Source: Achromobacter sp. Root83 (lineage in GTDB: Bacteria > Pseudomonadota > Gammaproteobacteria > Burkholderiales > Burkholderiaceae_B). From it: a stretch of DNA of 64,000 bases. The notes beneath the pieces are model-generated. The model was not told the origin of the DNA. It saw only the letters and a program-made list of their open reading frames with translations, and searched no databases. Within the stretch, counting starts at the first letter, position 1, and each line of letters opens with the position of its first letter. The stretch spans positions 5,243 through 69,242 of the forward strand of contig NZ_LMIU01000003.1 in assembly GCF_001428845.1 (NCBI RefSeq). The letters are read 5' to 3'. Positions 49,985-61,762 of the stretch are shown here, piece by piece. Position numbers and translations under genes: made by a program.

Positions 49985-50037
49985 CCCGCCCGCCAACAAC
50001 AAGCCGCCCATCGGGCGGCTTGTTGTTGGCGGGCGGG
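49985..50037. terminator. 25-bp perfect hairpin between convergent genes
   Basis: Two perfectly complementary 25-base arms are separated by ATC. The inner part is CAACAACAAGCCGCCC and the reverse complement. There is no T run on either side. It sits 18 bases after the Bug stop and overlaps nothing coding, so a bidirectional terminator or transcript 3'-end stabiliser is the simplest reading. Confidence 0.7.
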
Positions 50038-55417: not shown

Positions 55418-58400
55418 ATGGCTGACACAGAACGCTTGCCGCAGGACCACGCCGCCCGCGCCGATGCGCTGGACCCGGCGCGCTCATTCCTGGTCCAGGC
55501 CCCCGCGGGTTCGGGCAAGACCGAGCTGCTGACCGACCGCATCCTGGCCTTGCTGGCCACGGTGAACCGTCCCGAAGAAATCGTCGCGATCACGTTCACG
55601 CGCAAGGCCGCCTCCGAGATGCATGCGCGCGTGCTCAGCAAACTGCGGCGCGGCCTGGATGCGCCGCCGCAGGCCCGGCACGAACGCCGAAGCTGGGAAT
55701 TGGCCCGTGCGGCGCTGGCGCGCAATGCGGAGCTGGGCTGGCATCTGCTGGACCACCCGGCGCGCCTGGCCATCCGCACCATCGATTCCTTCTGCGCGGG
55801 GCTGGTGCGCAGCATGCCCTGGCTGTCGGAACTGGGCGGCATGCCGGACATCACCGACGATGCCCGCTCGCACTACGAGGCCGCCGCCCGCGCCACGCTG
55901 GACCTGGCCGACGATTACGAGGCCGTGCGCATTCTGCTCAAGCACCTGGACGTGGACGTGCAGGCGGCCAAGGACGCCATCGCGGACATGCTGGGACAGC
56001 GCGACCAATGGCTGCCGTTGCTGCGCCACGGTTCCGACCGCGAAGCGATGGAGGCCACGCTGGCCGAAGCCATCGGCGAAGACCTGGACGCGCTGAGCGC
56101 CGCCATGCCTTACGGGTGGGCCGAAGCGCTGTGCGGTCCGGCGCGCCTGGCGGCCGCCCATCTGCAGGACGGCGCCGACGACAACAAGCTGCTGGCGCTG
56201 CTGGACTGGACGGAAGAATTGCCGCCCGACGCCGAACTGCTGGACGCATGGCGCGCCGTGGCGCATCTGCTGCTGACCGGCACGGGCACCTTGCGCAAGA
56301 CAGTCACCAAGACCCTCGGGTTTCCCGCCAAGTGCGCGCACAAAGAGCCATTCGTGGCCTGGCTGGAAGGCGCCGACGGACAGGCAGCCTGGGTGCGCAG
56401 GCTGCATTCGGTCCGCGATATCCCCGCGCCGCATTTCACGGATGCGCAATGGGAAGTGCTGGGCGCCCAACTGATGACCCTGGCGCTCGCCGTGGCGCAG
56501 TTGCGCCTGCGCTTCGCCGACAAGGGCGAGGTGGATTTCATCGAGATCTCGCAACGCGCCGCTTCCGCGCTGGGCAGCGCCGACGACCCGGGCGAACTGC
56601 TGCTCAAGCTGGATGCGTCCATCCGCCATCTGCTCATCGACGAATTCCAGGACACCAGCCAGACGCAACTGGACCTGCTGCGCACGCTGACTTCCGGCTG
56701 GCAGGCGGGCGACGGCCGCAGCCTGTTCCTGGTCGGGGATCCGATGCAGTCGATCTACCGCTTCCGCAAGGCGGAGGTGGGCCTGTTCCTTGAAGTGGCC
56801 GACATCGGCGTGGGGGAATTGCAGCCGAATTTCCTGAACCTGACGGACAACTTCCGTTCGCAGGCCGGCATCGTGGATTGGGTGAACCGCTCGTTCGTGG
56901 AATTGCTGCCCAAGCGCAGCGATGCCAGCGCGGGCGCGATCGCCTACAGCCCGTCCACCGCATTCCACCCGCTCCTGCCCGATCCGGCGGTGTGCTTCCA
57001 TCCGGCCTGGTCGCGTGAAGGCGCGGTCTCGCCCGAGACGCAGGCCGAGGACATCGCGGTGGGACTGGTGCGCCAGGCGCTGACTGAATACAAGGGCGCG
57101 AAGCACCCCGTGGCGGTGCTGGTGCGCGCGCGCAGCCATCTTGGCAACCTGACCCGGCGGCTCGCGCAGGAAGGCATCCGCTGCCGCGCCGTGGATCTGG
57201 TGCCGCTGGCCTTGCGGCCCGTGGTCGCGGACCTGGTGCAGCTTGTGCGGGCGCTGTCGCACCCCGGCGACCGCCTGGCCTGGCTGTCGGTGCTGCGCGC
57301 GCCGTATTGCGGCCTGACGCTGACATCCCTGCAGCGCCTGTTCGGCGACGATCACGTCACGCCGGTGCCGGTCTTGCTGGAACGCGCGCTGCGCATTGTT
57401 CCGCGAGTCGCGGCGGTGACGGCGGACGCGGCGCCGCAGGGCTCGCTGTTCGACGCCGCGCCGGCGGAACCCGAATCGCCTTCCGCGCAGGCCTTGCTTG
57501 GCGCCGATGAGTTCGCGCGCTTGCGCCAGGTGGCGGCTGTCCTGCTCGACAAGCGCAACGCCTCCGGCGCGATGCCGTTCGCCGCGTGGGTCGAGTCGCT
57601 GTGGCGCCGCCTGGGCGGGCCGGGCCTGTATGCGGGCCTGTCCGTCGCCAACGACGCGGAAAGCCTGTTCCAGCTTGTCGAGCGGCTGGCGCCGCACGGC
57701 AGCATCGATGTCGCCGCGCTGGACGCGGGGATCTCTCGCCTGTTCGCCGCGCCGGATGCCGCGGACGAAGAGGACGGCGCGGTCGAGATCATGACCATGC
57801 ACAAGTCCAAGGGCCTGCAGTTCGAAACGGTGATCCTGTATGGCCTGCACCGCGCGCCGCGCGGAGATCAGGCGCCGCTGGTGCGTTTCGAGCAGAGCGG
57901 GGGGCGCGTGCTGTTCGGCCCCGTCAAGCCGCGGGCGGAAACCGAGGCCGATCCGGTGTCGCGCTATCTGGGCGCGCGCGAGGCGCGGCGCGCCTCGTAT
58001 GAAATCGACCGGTTGCTGTATGTGGCCGCGACGCGGGCGCGCAAGCGCCTGCACCTGGTGGGCCATGTGTCGGTGGACGAGGCCAGCGGCCAGCCCAAGA
58101 CGCCGCCCTCCGCCAGCCTGTTGGGGCGCCTTTGGCCGTGCCTGTCCGTGCCGGTGCCGCCGTCGCTGAATGGGGAAACCCTGCCCGAAACCTCCGACGC
58201 GCCCGAATGGCAGGGCGAACCCTTGCGCCGCGTGGACGGCGCGGGCCTAGCGCAGCTGTCGCGCCTGGCCGACGTGACGGTCAGCCCCGGCTTCGGCACC
58301 GCGACCCGGGGAGCCTGGGGCGACAGCGGCGAGCATCCCGCCTGGCAATTGGAGGCGGGCTACGACGCCGCCATCGGCACGCTGGCCCACGCATGGCTGG

Positions 58401-58867
58401 CGCGCATCGGACACGACGGCGTGCACGCCTGGCCGGCCGATGCGCTGGCGCGGCGCCTGCCCGCCATGCGCCGCCAACTGACACGCGCCGGCATCCCGGC
58501 AAGCCAGGCGGACGCCGCATCGGAAGCAGTGCTTGAAACCCTGCAGGCAACCCTCGCGGACAAACAGGGCCTGTGGCTGCTATCGCAATCCGGCGCCCGC
58601 CGCGAGTGGCCCCTGATCGACGCCGCGGGCAAGGTGTCCGTGATCGACCTGGCCCTCAGCACCGAAGACGGCTGGCTGATCGTCGACTACAAAACGGGCC
58701 GCCCCCACCCCGGCGAATCCCCCACCGCCTTCGCAACCCGCATGCGCCAGCGCCACGGCGAGCAACTGCTGCGTTACTGCACGCAAGTCACGGCCCTGGA
58801 CGGCCGCTCCGCCCGCGCAGCCCTCTACTTCCCCCGCGCCCGAGCCTGGATCGACCTGACAATGTAG
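55418..58867 (+). CDS. AddA-like UvrD-family helicase-nuclease
   Basis: 1149 residues. The helicase motifs are QAPAGSGKTELLTDRIL (Walker A), the DEFQDTSQTQ motif II, GDPMQSIYRFRKAEV, FRSQ..., MTMHKSKGLQFETVILYG (motif V) and LLYVAATRARKRLHLV (motif VI). The C-terminus has a nuclease domain, SVIDLALSTEDGWLIVDYKT. It processes double-strand breaks with the gene upstream; this pair would be the cell's RecBCD equivalent. The call of AddA over RecB rests on the two-nuclease, one-helicase arrangement. Confidence 0.88.
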   Translation: MADTERLPQDHAARADALDPARSFLVQAPAGSGKTELLTDRILALLATVNRPEEIVAITFTRKAASEMHARVLSKLRRGLDAPPQARHERRSWELARAALARNAELGWHLLDHPARLAIRTIDSFCAGLVRSMPWLSELGGMPDITDDARSHYEAAARATLDLADDYEAVRILLKHLDVDVQAAKDAIADMLGQRDQWLPLLRHGSDREAMEATLAEAIGEDLDALSAAMPYGWAEALCGPARLAAAHLQDGADDNKLLALLDWTEELPPDAELLDAWRAVAHLLLTGTGTLRKTVTKTLGFPAKCAHKEPFVAWLEGADGQAAWVRRLHSVRDIPAPHFTDAQWEVLGAQLMTLALAVAQLRLRFADKGEVDFIEISQRAASALGSADDPGELLLKLDASIRHLLIDEFQDTSQTQLDLLRTLTSGWQAGDGRSLFLVGDPMQSIYRFRKAEVGLFLEVADIGVGELQPNFLNLTDNFRSQAGIVDWVNRSFVELLPKRSDASAGAIAYSPSTAFHPLLPDPAVCFHPAWSREGAVSPETQAEDIAVGLVRQALTEYKGAKHPVAVLVRARSHLGNLTRRLAQEGIRCRAVDLVPLALRPVVADLVQLVRALSHPGDRLAWLSVLRAPYCGLTLTSLQRLFGDDHVTPVPVLLERALRIVPRVAAVTADAAPQGSLFDAAPAEPESPSAQALLGADEFARLRQVAAVLLDKRNASGAMPFAAWVESLWRRLGGPGLYAGLSVANDAESLFQLVERLAPHGSIDVAALDAGISRLFAAPDAADEEDGAVEIMTMHKSKGLQFETVILYGLHRAPRGDQAPLVRFEQSGGRVLFGPVKPRAETEADPVSRYLGAREARRASYEIDRLLYVAATRARKRLHLVGHVSVDEASGQPKTPPSASLLGRLWPCLSVPVPPSLNGETLPETSDAPEWQGEPLRRVDGAGLAQLSRLADVTVSPGFGTATRGAWGDSGEHPAWQLEAGYDAAIGTLAHAWLARIGHDGVHAWPADALARRLPAMRRQLTRAGIPASQADAASEAVLETLQATLADKQGLWLLSQSGARREWPLIDAAGKVSVIDLALSTEDGWLIVDYKTGRPHPGESPTAFATRMRQRHGEQLLRYCTQVTALDGRSARAALYFPRARAWIDLTM

Positions 58868-59130
58868 ATACCCGGCAAAAAAAGCAGTCCACCCAGCGAA
58901 GCGCGATAAACCGAAGCAAGCCCCCCGTACAACGCAGCGACGCCCCCGCAAGCCCCAAGCAGATCTAGCAAAAGCAAGGCAAAGCGAAGCGAGCCGCCCG
59001 GGCCAGCGAAGCGAAGCCCGCCTCCCTCCCCCTCGGGGGGAGGGCCGGGGAGGGGGCCCACATACCGCCCCTCGGGGCCCGCCAGCCGAGATTCGAGCAA
59101 GCGCGCGAAGCGCAGCTCTGCTAGAATCTC
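58868..59130. other. repeat-rich region between the addA-like gene and 4.5S RNA
   Basis: No gene is supported. It has repeated GCGAAGCG-type words (CCAGCGAAGCG occurs twice, near 58895 and 59005) and a C-run/G-run hairpin at about 59022-59042 that could end the helicase transcript. The left arm of a 21-bp inverted repeat (59074-59094) matches the 4.5S RNA 5' end. Confidence 0.6.
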
Positions 59131-59144
59131 GGCTGGCGGGCCCC
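59074..59144. repeat. 21-bp perfect inverted repeat covering the 4.5S RNA start
   Basis: The left arm is 59074-59094 and the right arm 59124-59144, separated by 29 bases. Arms begin GGGGCCCGCCAGCCG and end CGGCTGGCGGGCCCC. The right arm contains most of the -10 box and the first bases of the SRP RNA. Confidence 0.92.
59122..59127 (+). promoter_or_regulatory. -10 box of the 4.5S RNA gene
   Basis: TAGAAT (five of six matches to TATAAT) lies four bases before the predicted RNA start; a clear -35 is not seen at the usual distance. Confidence 0.55.
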
Positions 59145-59233
59145 TTCGCATGGTTCGACGGTGAACCTGGTCAGGTCGGGAACGAAGCAGCCATAGTCGT
59201 TTAGGGTCAGTGCCGGAGTAAGGCTCGCCAACC
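59131..59233 (+). ncRNA. ffs: 4.5S signal recognition particle RNA
   Basis: About 103 nt. The conserved domain IV apical segment GGTCAGGTCGGGAACGAAGC with AGCAGCCA is unmistakable. The 5' GGCTGGCGGGCC pairs with the 3' GGCTCGCCAACC, closing the long hairpin with a few wobble pairs. It binds Ffh for co-translational membrane targeting. The exact ends are inferred from pairing. Its 5' end is part of the 21-bp inverted repeat. Confidence 0.95.
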
Positions 59234-59242
59234 GGATTCTTC

Positions 59243-59283
59243 AAAGCAAAGGCGTCATGATTAAACCCATGGCGCTTTGCTTT
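59243..59283 (+). terminator. putative hairpin after 4.5S RNA
   Basis: AAAGCAAAG pairs with CTTTGCTTT, with CATG/CATG pairing further in. It lies ten bases after the RNA 3' end; no T run follows, so it may be a processing or termination structure. Confidence 0.45.
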
Positions 59284-59395
59284 CAGGGGGGACGGGGTTA
59301 TTTTCCAAGGATTCGTTCCACGGGAATAAGCCCGTCCCCTTTGCATTTCAGCCCGCCGGTCAACGGGTTCAACAATCAGGCTCTACAATCCAGCC

Positions 59396-61762
59396 ATGAC
59401 TTATCTGGTATTGGCCCGCAAGTGGCGGCCGCGATCGTTCGATACCCTCGTGGGGCAGGATCACGTGGTGCGCGCGCTTACCCACGCGCTCGACACGCAA
59501 CGCCTGCATCACGCCTGGCTGTTCACCGGAACCCGCGGCGTGGGCAAGACCACGCTCTCGCGCATTCTGGCGAAATCGCTCAATTGCGAAACAGGCATCA
59601 CGTCCAAGCCTTGCGGCGTCTGTCGCGCCTGCACCGAGATCGATGCGGGGCGCTTCGTCGACTACCTCGAGCTCGATGCGGCGTCGAACCGCGGCGTCGA
59701 AGAAATGACCCAGCTGCTGGAGCAGGCGGTGTACGCGCCGGGCGCCGGACGCTTCAAGGTCTACATGATCGACGAAGTCCACATGCTGACCGGGCACGCG
59801 TTCAATGCGATGCTCAAGACGCTCGAAGAGCCTCCGCCCCACGTCAAATTCATCCTGGCCACCACCGATCCTCAGAAGATTCCGGTGACGGTGTTGTCGC
59901 GCTGCCTGCAGTTCAACCTGAAGCAGATGCCCGCCGACTCCATCGTCGGCCATTTGCAAGCCGTGCTGGGGCAGGAAGACGTGGGATTCGAGGTGCCCGC
60001 GCTGCGCCTGATCGGGCAAGCGGCTTCGGGATCCATGCGCGACGCGCTGTCGCTGACAGACCAGGCCATTGCCTACAGCGCCGGCAATCTGACCGAGGAC
60101 GCCGTGCGCGGCATGCTCGGCACCATCGACCAACGCCATCTTGTCCGCCTGCTGGACGCGCTGTCCACGGGCGACGCCAAGGGCGTGCTGGCGGTGGCGG
60201 ATGAACTTGCGATCCGCGGCCTGTCCTATGCCGGCGCGCTGGCTGACCTGGCCGTGCTGCTCTCGCGCGTGGCCATCGAACAGCGCGTGACGGGCGTCAC
60301 GCCTGCCGAAGACCCGCTGGCGGGCGATATCGCGCGTCTGGCGCAGGTTCTGCACCCGGACGCGGTGCAATTGTTCTATTCCGTGGCCGTGCACAGCCGC
60401 AGTGAGCTGACCCTGGCGCCCGACGAATACGCGGGCTTCATCATGGCTTGCCTGCGCATGCTGGCGCTCAATGGCGACGCCGGCCCGCAAACCGTGCTGG
60501 AAGCGCCTGCCGCGCCCGCTCGCCAAACGGCGGAACCGGCGCTGGCCACGGCGGCGCCCGCGGCCGCACCGGCCCCTGCCGCCTCGGCACCCGCCGCAAC
60601 CGCCACCGTCGTTTCGGCGCCTGCGGCAACAGCCGCCGTCGCGCCGCCGCCTGCCTCAGCGCCTGCCGCAATGGCTCCCGCAGCCACGGTTCCTACGTCC
60701 ACGGTTCCTGCGGCCACGACCGCCGCGGCCCCGGCCTCCGGTGCCGAAGCCGTCGCAGTCGCGCCTGTCCCGGCCACCCCGCCGGTTGCCGCCCAGCCAT
60801 CCGCTGTCCCCGCCTCCGTCCCTGTAGAAGCGCTCGCGCCTTCGGGGACCGCTGTCGCGGCGTCGGCGCCTTCGGCTCCCGCTTCCGCGCCCGAGCCTGC
60901 GCAAGCGGCGGCGCCGGCCGAACCCATCCCTGCTCCCGTGATGGCGGCATCCGCCGCGCCGGTGGCACCCGAGCCCGCCGCAGCCCCTCCCGTGCCGCAA
61001 GCCGCCGATAGCGGCAGCGTGCCGCCCTGGGAAGATCTGCCGGCCAGCGCTTCCGCCGCGCCGGCGTCCGGCAAGCTGGCAGGCTCGGCTGCGCTGGCGG
61101 TGACGCCCGCCGTGGCTGCCGTGGCGGCGGCTCCGGCGGCGGACGATGCCGACGGCCCCCCGTCCTGGGTCGACGAAGAGATTCCCTTCGAAGCCGAAGG
61201 CGGCTTTGCGCCGGAAAGCGGCTTCACCTCCGACCCCGACGACGATTTCGAAACCCTGGCCACGACGCCATCCACCGCGCCGTCCGCGGCATCGCAGCCG
61301 GCCTCCGCACCCGCGCGGCGCGACGGCCCGGCGCCCGCGCGCAAGCGTTCGTCGCGCGCCCGCATGGCGGACATGACCTCGGCTTTGTGGCCGGAACTGG
61401 CAGGGCGGCTGCCCGTCACCGGCCTGGCCGCGGAACTGGCGCGCCAGAGCGAATGGGCCGGCGTGCAGGGCGATGCAATCATTCTGCGCGTGGCCGTCAA
61501 GACGCTTGCCGAAAGCGAAAGCCGTGTCCGTCTGCAAACCGTGCTGTGCGAACATTTCGGGCAGGGCATACGTCTGGACGTGGAAGTCGGCGTCACGGGC
61601 GACGCCACGGCGCATGCCGTGGCGCAGGCCGAGCGCGCGGCACGCCAACTGGCGGCCGAAGACGCGGTGGCCGTCGATCCTTTTGTTCAAGCGCTGGTGG
61701 CCGATTTTGGCGGCATGGTCGTGCCCGGCTCGATCCGCCACGTTGATCTCCCCGCCGCCTGA
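59396..61762 (+). CDS. dnaX: DNA polymerase III subunit tau/gamma
   Basis: 788 residues. The clamp-loader ATPase has Walker A GTRGVGKTTLSR, a four-cysteine zinc site (CETGITSKPCGVCRAC), DEVHMLTGHAFNAMLK and the SRC motif (VLSRCLQF). Residues about 360-580 are a very alanine/proline-rich low-complexity linker. The C-terminal tau domain ends with QALVADFGGMVVPGSIRHVD. I see no slippery A-rich heptamer for a gamma frameshift. It starts 160 bases after the SRP RNA. Confidence 0.95.
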   Translation: MTYLVLARKWRPRSFDTLVGQDHVVRALTHALDTQRLHHAWLFTGTRGVGKTTLSRILAKSLNCETGITSKPCGVCRACTEIDAGRFVDYLELDAASNRGVEEMTQLLEQAVYAPGAGRFKVYMIDEVHMLTGHAFNAMLKTLEEPPPHVKFILATTDPQKIPVTVLSRCLQFNLKQMPADSIVGHLQAVLGQEDVGFEVPALRLIGQAASGSMRDALSLTDQAIAYSAGNLTEDAVRGMLGTIDQRHLVRLLDALSTGDAKGVLAVADELAIRGLSYAGALADLAVLLSRVAIEQRVTGVTPAEDPLAGDIARLAQVLHPDAVQLFYSVAVHSRSELTLAPDEYAGFIMACLRMLALNGDAGPQTVLEAPAAPARQTAEPALATAAPAAAPAPAASAPAATATVVSAPAATAAVAPPPASAPAAMAPAATVPTSTVPAATTAAAPASGAEAVAVAPVPATPPVAAQPSAVPASVPVEALAPSGTAVAASAPSAPASAPEPAQAAAPAEPIPAPVMAASAAPVAPEPAAAPPVPQAADSGSVPPWEDLPASASAAPASGKLAGSAALAVTPAVAAVAAAPAADDADGPPSWVDEEIPFEAEGGFAPESGFTSDPDDDFETLATTPSTAPSAASQPASAPARRDGPAPARKRSSRARMADMTSALWPELAGRLPVTGLAAELARQSEWAGVQGDAIILRVAVKTLAESESRVRLQTVLCEHFGQGIRLDVEVGVTGDATAHAVAQAERAARQLAAEDAVAVDPFVQALVADFGGMVVPGSIRHVDLPAA

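Follow-up and report, generated by a model that had tools for sequence, protein, structure and literature searches.

The question raised by this locus is why the promoter of ffs, the gene for the 4.5S/SRP RNA, is preceded by an inverted copy of itself and of the RNA 5′ end, and what keeps the two copies alike. The window, i.e., the whole 64,000-nucleotide stretch of Achromobacter sp. Root83 that was analyzed, places ffs among the following neighbors.

55418 to 58867, forward strand: AddA/RecB-like helicase-nuclease gene upstream of ffs, with UvrD helicase and PDDEXK domains (its scores lie under the NCBIfam cut-offs for addA)
59135 to 59232, forward strand: ffs, 4.5S/SRP RNA (Rfam Bacteria_small_SRP RF00169, 75.6 bits, E 4.4e-15)
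59288 to 59339, forward strand: inverted repeat 3′ of ffs from the inverted-repeat search, probably the ffs terminator
59396 to 61762, forward strand: dnaX, DNA polymerase III gamma/tau, downstream of ffs (above the NCBIfam cut-off)

The covariance-model score of 75.6 bits, set against a gathering score of 40, assigns the RNA to the bacterial small SRP RNAs, and in its best segment dnaX is 89–98% identical to named Achromobacter contigs and 62–94% identical to Bordetella contigs. The inverted copy lies between the upstream gene and ffs, and its parts, together with those of the promoter, are as follows.

59074 to 59099, forward strand: left arm, an inverted copy of ffs –16 to +10 with one mismatch, present in 42 of 42 Achromobacter
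59084 to 59090, forward strand: variable portion of the left arm, co-varying with 59128–59134 when the arms are compared
59091 to 59096, reverse strand: mirror of the –10 element, disabled on comparison of loci, reading TCGAAT on the minus strand
59100 to 59118, unstranded: spacer that can form a short inner hairpin, which is weak over the whole set
59119 to 59144, forward strand: right arm, –16 to +10 counted from the RNA 5′ end, with the extended –10, the discriminator and the first ten SRP RNA bases
59119 to 59127, forward strand: putative extended –10 of the ffs promoter, TGCTAGAAT, from its conservation and a similar element in repeat-free Alcaligenaceae
59128 to 59134, forward strand: discriminator of seven bases, co-varying with 59084–59090 when the arms are compared

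The extended –10 shows 0 changes at its nine sites across 42 Achromobacter, and most repeat-free Alcaligenaceae relatives have, as judged by eye, a similar –10 at an equal distance from the RNA. From the spacing of the –10 and this similar layout in the relatives, transcription of ffs would start at about 59135; a search of the literature by title for measured ffs start sites in Bordetella gave nothing usable.

The repeat itself is 26 nt long, with arms at 59074–59099 and 59119–59144 that are complementary at 25 of 26 positions (96%) and separated by 19 nt. Within it the 21-bp perfect core that had been described earlier as covering the –10 and the RNA start, with its left arm 29 bp upstream, was recovered at the same place (59074–59094 and 59124–59144, 29 nt between). 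It is thus an imperfect inverted repeat with a short spacer, as expected of a quasipalindrome. Folded as single-stranded DNA, 59060–59150 reaches –42.7 kcal/mol (z –10.25 against 200 shuffles), and plus-strand RNA from 58990 to 59250 also folds better than its shuffles (z –5.74), with the full hairpin included. A search of the window with the 21-mer, allowing up to three mismatches, found no place beyond the two arms (chance expectation 0.01), which together with the folding z of –10.25 rules out a chance origin. In the 6.2-Mb genome the best match besides the two arms has an E value of 0.25; with no further copy of the arm in genome or window, a dispersed repeat element is rejected as well. 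The inner hairpin of the spacer is clearer in Bordetella-type genomes, e.g., GCGGGC-TTTC-GCCCGC; over the whole set its helix is paired in only 67.8% of cells with weak covariation, and the RNAalifold consensus recovered the outer stem and not the inner hairpin. Elsewhere in the window, just past a gene end (49985–50037), two perfect 25-bp inverted arms enclose a 3-base loop and resemble an ordinary terminator-type hairpin.

The repeat was scored as present at a cut-off of 16 of 18 complementary bases. In a comparison of 168 loci and the window, seven sequences in which a simple pattern found no SRP core were left unread. In Achromobacter every one of the 42 genomes with a recognized ffs has the repeat (the set numbers 43, made up of our own genome, 36 others of the genus and six more, and the fragmentary G029 gave no SRP match). 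The earlier note had named absence of the left arm from close relatives as grounds for dropping its proposal, and within the genus no such absence occurs. In two further genera the repeat is found in 10 of 14 g31 genomes (15 in all, G114 having no SRP match) and in 6 of 9 g32 genomes, i.e., 16 of 23 together, the left arm being absent from the other seven. We call these genera Bordetella-type because some g31 and g32 loci have exactly the sequence of named Bordetella loci in this region. The repeat is carried by the named contigs of Bordetella hinzii, pseudohinzii, petrii MY10, ansorpii, genomosp. 2 and genomosp. 5. The two neighboring genera lack it (0 of 6 g33 and 0 of 2 g35 genomes, 0 of 8 together). 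Nine of 141 further ffs loci reach the cut-off, all on named Achromobacter contigs that are probably repeats of counted genomes; the remaining 132, some of which represent the same genome twice, reach at most 15 of 18, and only L006 exceeds 14. On the dnaX tree, in which several forks are weakly supported, the simplest history by eye would be that the repeat arose once, before g1, g31 and g32 separated, and was lost in places later. The repeat is carried by 42 of 42 Achromobacter and by separately deposited named genomes, and we give next to no credence to the idea that it is a recent private scar, a chance event or an assembly artefact of this genome.

A wider search of 399 order-level genomes for independent origins, with a 6-base pattern from the left-arm core, found it in 16, against 11 for the backwards control. 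Six of the matches lie, by eye, at an ffs gene; two of these are Achromobacter with long arms, and the other four (G360, G472, G536 and G578) show little agreement past the 6-base core. Three loci outside the main pattern may be recorded here. At 1459–1505 of L006, which belongs to a different Burkholderiales lineage (G051), –42..–30 and –8..+4 of ffs form an inverted repeat of 13 bp, in the one genome of that genus that was covered. L185, counted as repeat-free, is complementary at 12 of 18 bases at the usual place, about –61, perhaps a decaying remnant of the left arm. In L181 the center of the repeat is shifted, so that part of the –10 falls at the hairpin tip, and a further strong inverted repeat lies just upstream; with this shifted center the locus was excluded from alignment A1.

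In two loci ffs has different neighbors. L080 carries it between an Lrp-type regulator gene and an upstream KDPG aldolase gene directed away from ffs, and L088 between an Lrp-type regulator gene and a co-directional upstream transaldolase gene. The repeat is intact in both, and thus it goes with ffs and not with the addA-like gene. In both loci the RNA 5′ end itself has become GGTGGGTCC, matched by ACCCACC in the left arm. Next to the left arm L080 (1590–1675) has in addition a nine-base third copy of the RNA 5′ end, in the changed form found in its lineage and in the place taken elsewhere by GCCCC; this extra copy would fit continuing inverted copying.

The two arms change together. In Achromobacter the –10 and RNA positions +1 to +10 are unchanged; the seven bases between them vary frequently, with the left arm varying in step. 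Positions –8..–1 of the right arm occur in 26 distinct versions among 65 repeat-bearing loci, and for 23 of the 26 an exact left-arm complement occurs in at least one locus. Joining the 26 versions in a minimum spanning network takes 38 changes, with 25 as the firm lower bound. Over 47 distinct sequences, pairing at –8..–1 is 97.9%, against 70.6% when arms are shuffled and 22–40% when they are slid. Across the 56 repeat-bearing tips of the dnaX tree, 380 of 392 cells at –7..–1 are Watson-Crick pairs and 12 are not, with up to four pair types per position. L080 and L088, where ffs is not beside dnaX, were pruned from this tree; the named duplicates L100, L101, L106, L109 and L140 were left out of it, and L107 and L135 were placed in it and pruned before counting.

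On this tree 58 right-arm changes were counted at –7..–1, and about 47 of them (mean of 200 equally parsimonious histories) fall on the same branch as a left-arm change, where about 7 are expected if left-arm changes are placed at random by branch length. With all 18 columns the figures are 47.8 of 60, with 7.5 expected. A hand count over 19 sister pairs that share no branch gives a matching difference at the left-arm partner for 13 of 15 right-arm differences; in columns without a right-arm difference the left arm differs in 7 of 118 (Fisher p 2e-11). The joint changes include mirrored changes of several bases, as a quasipalindrome should produce: L174 and L176 differ at five adjacent right-arm bases, four of which are matched in the left arm, and L170/L171 and L013/L051 differ at two adjacent bases each, all of them matched. 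Exceptions occur; position –1 of the left arm often departs alone, and the sister pair L046/L050 is mismatched.

The rate of these changes was compared with fourfold-degenerate sites. At 77 dnaX fourfold sites the 42 Achromobacter show 3.62 changes per site, against 4.29 in the right arm and 5.71 in the left; for all 56 tips the values are 5.51 in dnaX against 8.29 and 9.71. Because recombination between species can inflate counts made on the dnaX tree, addA fourfold sites served as a further control, covering 42 of the 56 tips (47 had a recognizable gene end, 42 enough sequence). With 6.20 changes per site at 20 addA fourfold sites, the right arm here shows 6.57 and the left arm 7.71; for the 30 Achromobacter tips alone the addA sites show 4.31, the right arm 3.29 and the left arm 4.43. 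The right-arm rate is therefore 0.76–1.5 times that of fourfold sites over the four comparisons and slower in one (0.76), so that, this comparison apart, coupled change is not below the neutral-site rate. The outer ten bases of the left arm (59074–59083) stand at the other extreme, with 0.2 changes per site in Achromobacter against 3.62 at dnaX fourfold sites, a slowness that copying from a partner fixed by RNA function would explain. The upstream DNA at –150..–115, with 2.43 changes per site in Achromobacter, and the G-rich element described below, with 1.61, are also below the fourfold sites. This slow flank and the 42 of 42 retention of the repeat in Achromobacter suggest some selection on the region. 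Since fourfold sites are imperfectly neutral, the flank is slow and recombination adds noise, the argument from rate is a strong one short of proof.

One part of the left arm does not follow its partner. Read on the minus strand, an intact left arm would carry a second TGCTAGAAT, and in the window the two –10s would stand about 30 bp apart. Among the 65 repeat-bearing loci, the mirror TAGAAT is intact in one (L035) and broken in 64, where it is either deleted or damaged (TCGAAT, TGGAAT, TAGCCT and others). Among 47 distinct sequences, 20 are mispaired only opposite the second base of the –10 and 19 only opposite its two adjacent A's; two (L034 and L035) are mispaired at none of these, and six otherwise. 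Folded as RNA, all 48 distinct repeat sequences give one long hairpin, most of them mispaired at the –10, and the folds of L034 and L035 are paired through it. When the two main mirror forms and a class for the rest are placed on the tree, nine changes are needed. Correction thus does not extend over the whole arm, the mirror –10 differing from its partner in 64 of 65 loci. This counts against arm-to-arm copying, unless copying seldom crosses the mirror –10 or, on an assumption made here, selection undoes it. With the failure read as selection or as limits on tract length, the locus would work like a quasipalindrome maintained by template switching in which correction fails in part of one arm. 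A backward promoter at the mirror position would probably be harmful.

On balance we consider it probable that template switching makes the arms evolve in concert while the promoter and the RNA end stay fixed. The left arm would have arisen long ago, in a common ancestor of Achromobacter and the Bordetella-type genera, as an inverted copy of the ffs core promoter and the 5′ end of the RNA. Of the scar of an inverted duplication that the earlier note had considered, the inverted copy of –16..+10 is therefore borne out and a recent date is not, the arm being old and kept alike. The arms would be kept alike mainly by mutation, when a nascent strand folds back on the quasipalindrome and copies one arm from the other. 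Where the RNA bases +1 to +10 are constrained, the left arm would be pulled back to match the right. In the seven bases between the –10 and +1 neither arm would be constrained, and a mutation would be either erased or spread to both arms, so that the unconstrained pair would drift jointly at about the neutral rate. The rate was derived here as follows: if mismatches are soon resolved by copying and half of them are spread to both arms, the pair changes at the neutral rate. Copies that rebuild the mirror –10 would be removed, probably since a mirror promoter would fire backwards or compete. Independent mutation followed by selection would instead lead us to expect either pair turnover below neutral or common unpaired intermediates. 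Coupled change near the neutral rate is thus predicted by arm-to-arm copying and not readily explained by selection on independent mutations. A further point against copying is that over all genera the arms outpace the dnaX sites (8.29 and 9.71 against 5.51), which a purely neutral account does not predict. The support for template switching is comparative, each mutation event being reconstructed from genomes.

The same observations bear on other readings. The repeat could be a selected DNA switch, in line with the cruciform control of ffs raised in the earlier note. A cruciform extruded by negative supercoiling would hold the –10 and the start site and lower ffs expression, selection would keep the arms complementary, and the mirror –10 would be broken to keep the extruded arm from firing backward. 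The single long hairpin formed by all 48 distinct sequences, the small-loop inner hairpin that could nucleate extrusion in many Bordetella-type genomes, the company that the repeat keeps with ffs where neighbors differ, and its retention in 42 of 42 Achromobacter, which hints at some use, all speak for such a switch. However, it predicts either pair turnover well under neutral or frequent mismatches, neither of which was found, and single mismatches should do little harm to a stem of about 20 pairs. Moreover, seven of 23 Bordetella-type genomes have no left arm, and the repeat must therefore be dispensable in the long term. We regard a selected switch, the main rival of copying or an addition to it, as possible but doubtful. 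That both hold at once, i.e., that a promoter in concerted evolution with its own inverted copy also forms a cruciform that hides the ffs –10 at high supercoiling, with the mirror –10 disabled, we would call unlikely.

The hairpin might instead act in RNA, as the earlier note had proposed for an upstream transcript masking the RNA 5′ end: read-through RNA from upstream would sequester the 5′ end of 4.5S RNA, and either only RNA from the ffs promoter would mature or RNase III would cut the junction. Primary RNA from the ffs promoter should be without the left arm, which upstream read-through transcripts could hold. The fold of plus-strand RNA 58990–59250 with its full hairpin (z –5.74) and the co-directional upstream gene in the window agree with this reading, and G:U exceeds A:C among the mismatches (8 and 4 of 22, over 31 distinct arm pairs), but that difference is not significant (p = 0.39). 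Masking by read-through RNA is disfavored because in L080 the upstream gene diverges and the repeat remains. A consensus scan found no upstream sigma-70 promoter, a weak point since it also misses the ffs promoter, and the argument from the neutral rate applies as it does to the DNA switch. An RNA-level hairpin is accordingly quite unlikely in our estimate. We think it very improbable that the repeat is a terminator that stops upstream transcription or a bidirectional promoter that drives two divergent transcripts. Its strong GC-rich stem and its symmetry around the extended –10 would suit these roles, but neither arm is followed by the T-run that an intrinsic terminator combines with a GC hairpin, and that candidate was rejected. 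A terminator scan found 0 terminator-like sites, allowing loops of 3–8 only; it did not score the likely ffs terminator at 59288–59339 either and is of little weight. A bidirectional promoter would have an intact –10 on both strands, which is found in 1 of 65 loci.

When the two sides of a stem change in compensating ways, this is usually taken as strong evidence of a selected RNA structure. The ffs repeat shows strong covariation in DNA, one side of which the primary transcript should not contain, at a near-neutral rate, and it warns that covariation is by itself no proof of RNA. Promoters within imperfect hairpins are known from the single-strand hairpin promoters of conjugative plasmids and phages (Frpo, the M13 origin and N4). 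The ffs repeat differs from these in belonging to a chromosomal gene with a normal duplex promoter. A search of the open-access literature by title or abstract opening gave nothing on the ffs repeat.

Quasipalindrome template switching has been described for E. coli (PMC7202029). That system shares with our case an imperfect inverted repeat whose arms become more alike when the nascent strand is copied; there a single hotspot is corrected, whereas here copying would have acted over long times at a natural promoter, as judged from 58 genomes, with joint drift of both arms. Template switching has also been proposed to create and maintain RNA hairpins (PMC8794818), and the Discussion of that paper calls the evidence for maintenance circumstantial. 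Coupled changes of several bases on both stem sides, with one side copied from the other, are common to both cases. The passages available from that paper cover rRNA and microRNA genes, whereas the ffs hairpin straddles a promoter, its primary RNA should be without the left arm, and ffs gives one match per repeat-bearing genome. With one match per genome, 58 genomes (one per species), natural losses and a repeat that can be moved into E. coli reporters, maintenance by template switching is directly testable here. The arms of yeast inverted repeats are likewise homogenized by template switching, in coding sequences of the yeast lineage (PMC8604942). Bidirectional promoters with symmetrical sequences (PMC12825309) share with the ffs locus inverted promoter copies on opposite strands; here, in contrast, the mirror –10 is disabled in 64 of 65 loci, with the –10s about 30 bp apart in the window.

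Two elements lie upstream of the left arm.

59025 to 59056, forward strand: G-rich hairpin with four G-runs, conserved upstream of ffs in Achromobacter
59067 to 59071, forward strand: conserved GCCCC able to pair with the five outermost left-arm bases (1 change in five sites)

The GCCCC may be a partial third copy of the RNA 5′ end. The two positions between it and the left arm, 59072 and 59073, show 9 and 10 changes on the Achromobacter tree and are among the fastest sites of the region. The G-rich element changes more slowly than fourfold sites (1.61 changes per site in Achromobacter) and is present in one copy in the window; in the genome search, low-complexity filtering may hide G-rich copies. 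It is visible in many repeat-bearing Bordetella-type loci, and its four G-runs could form a G-quadruplex.
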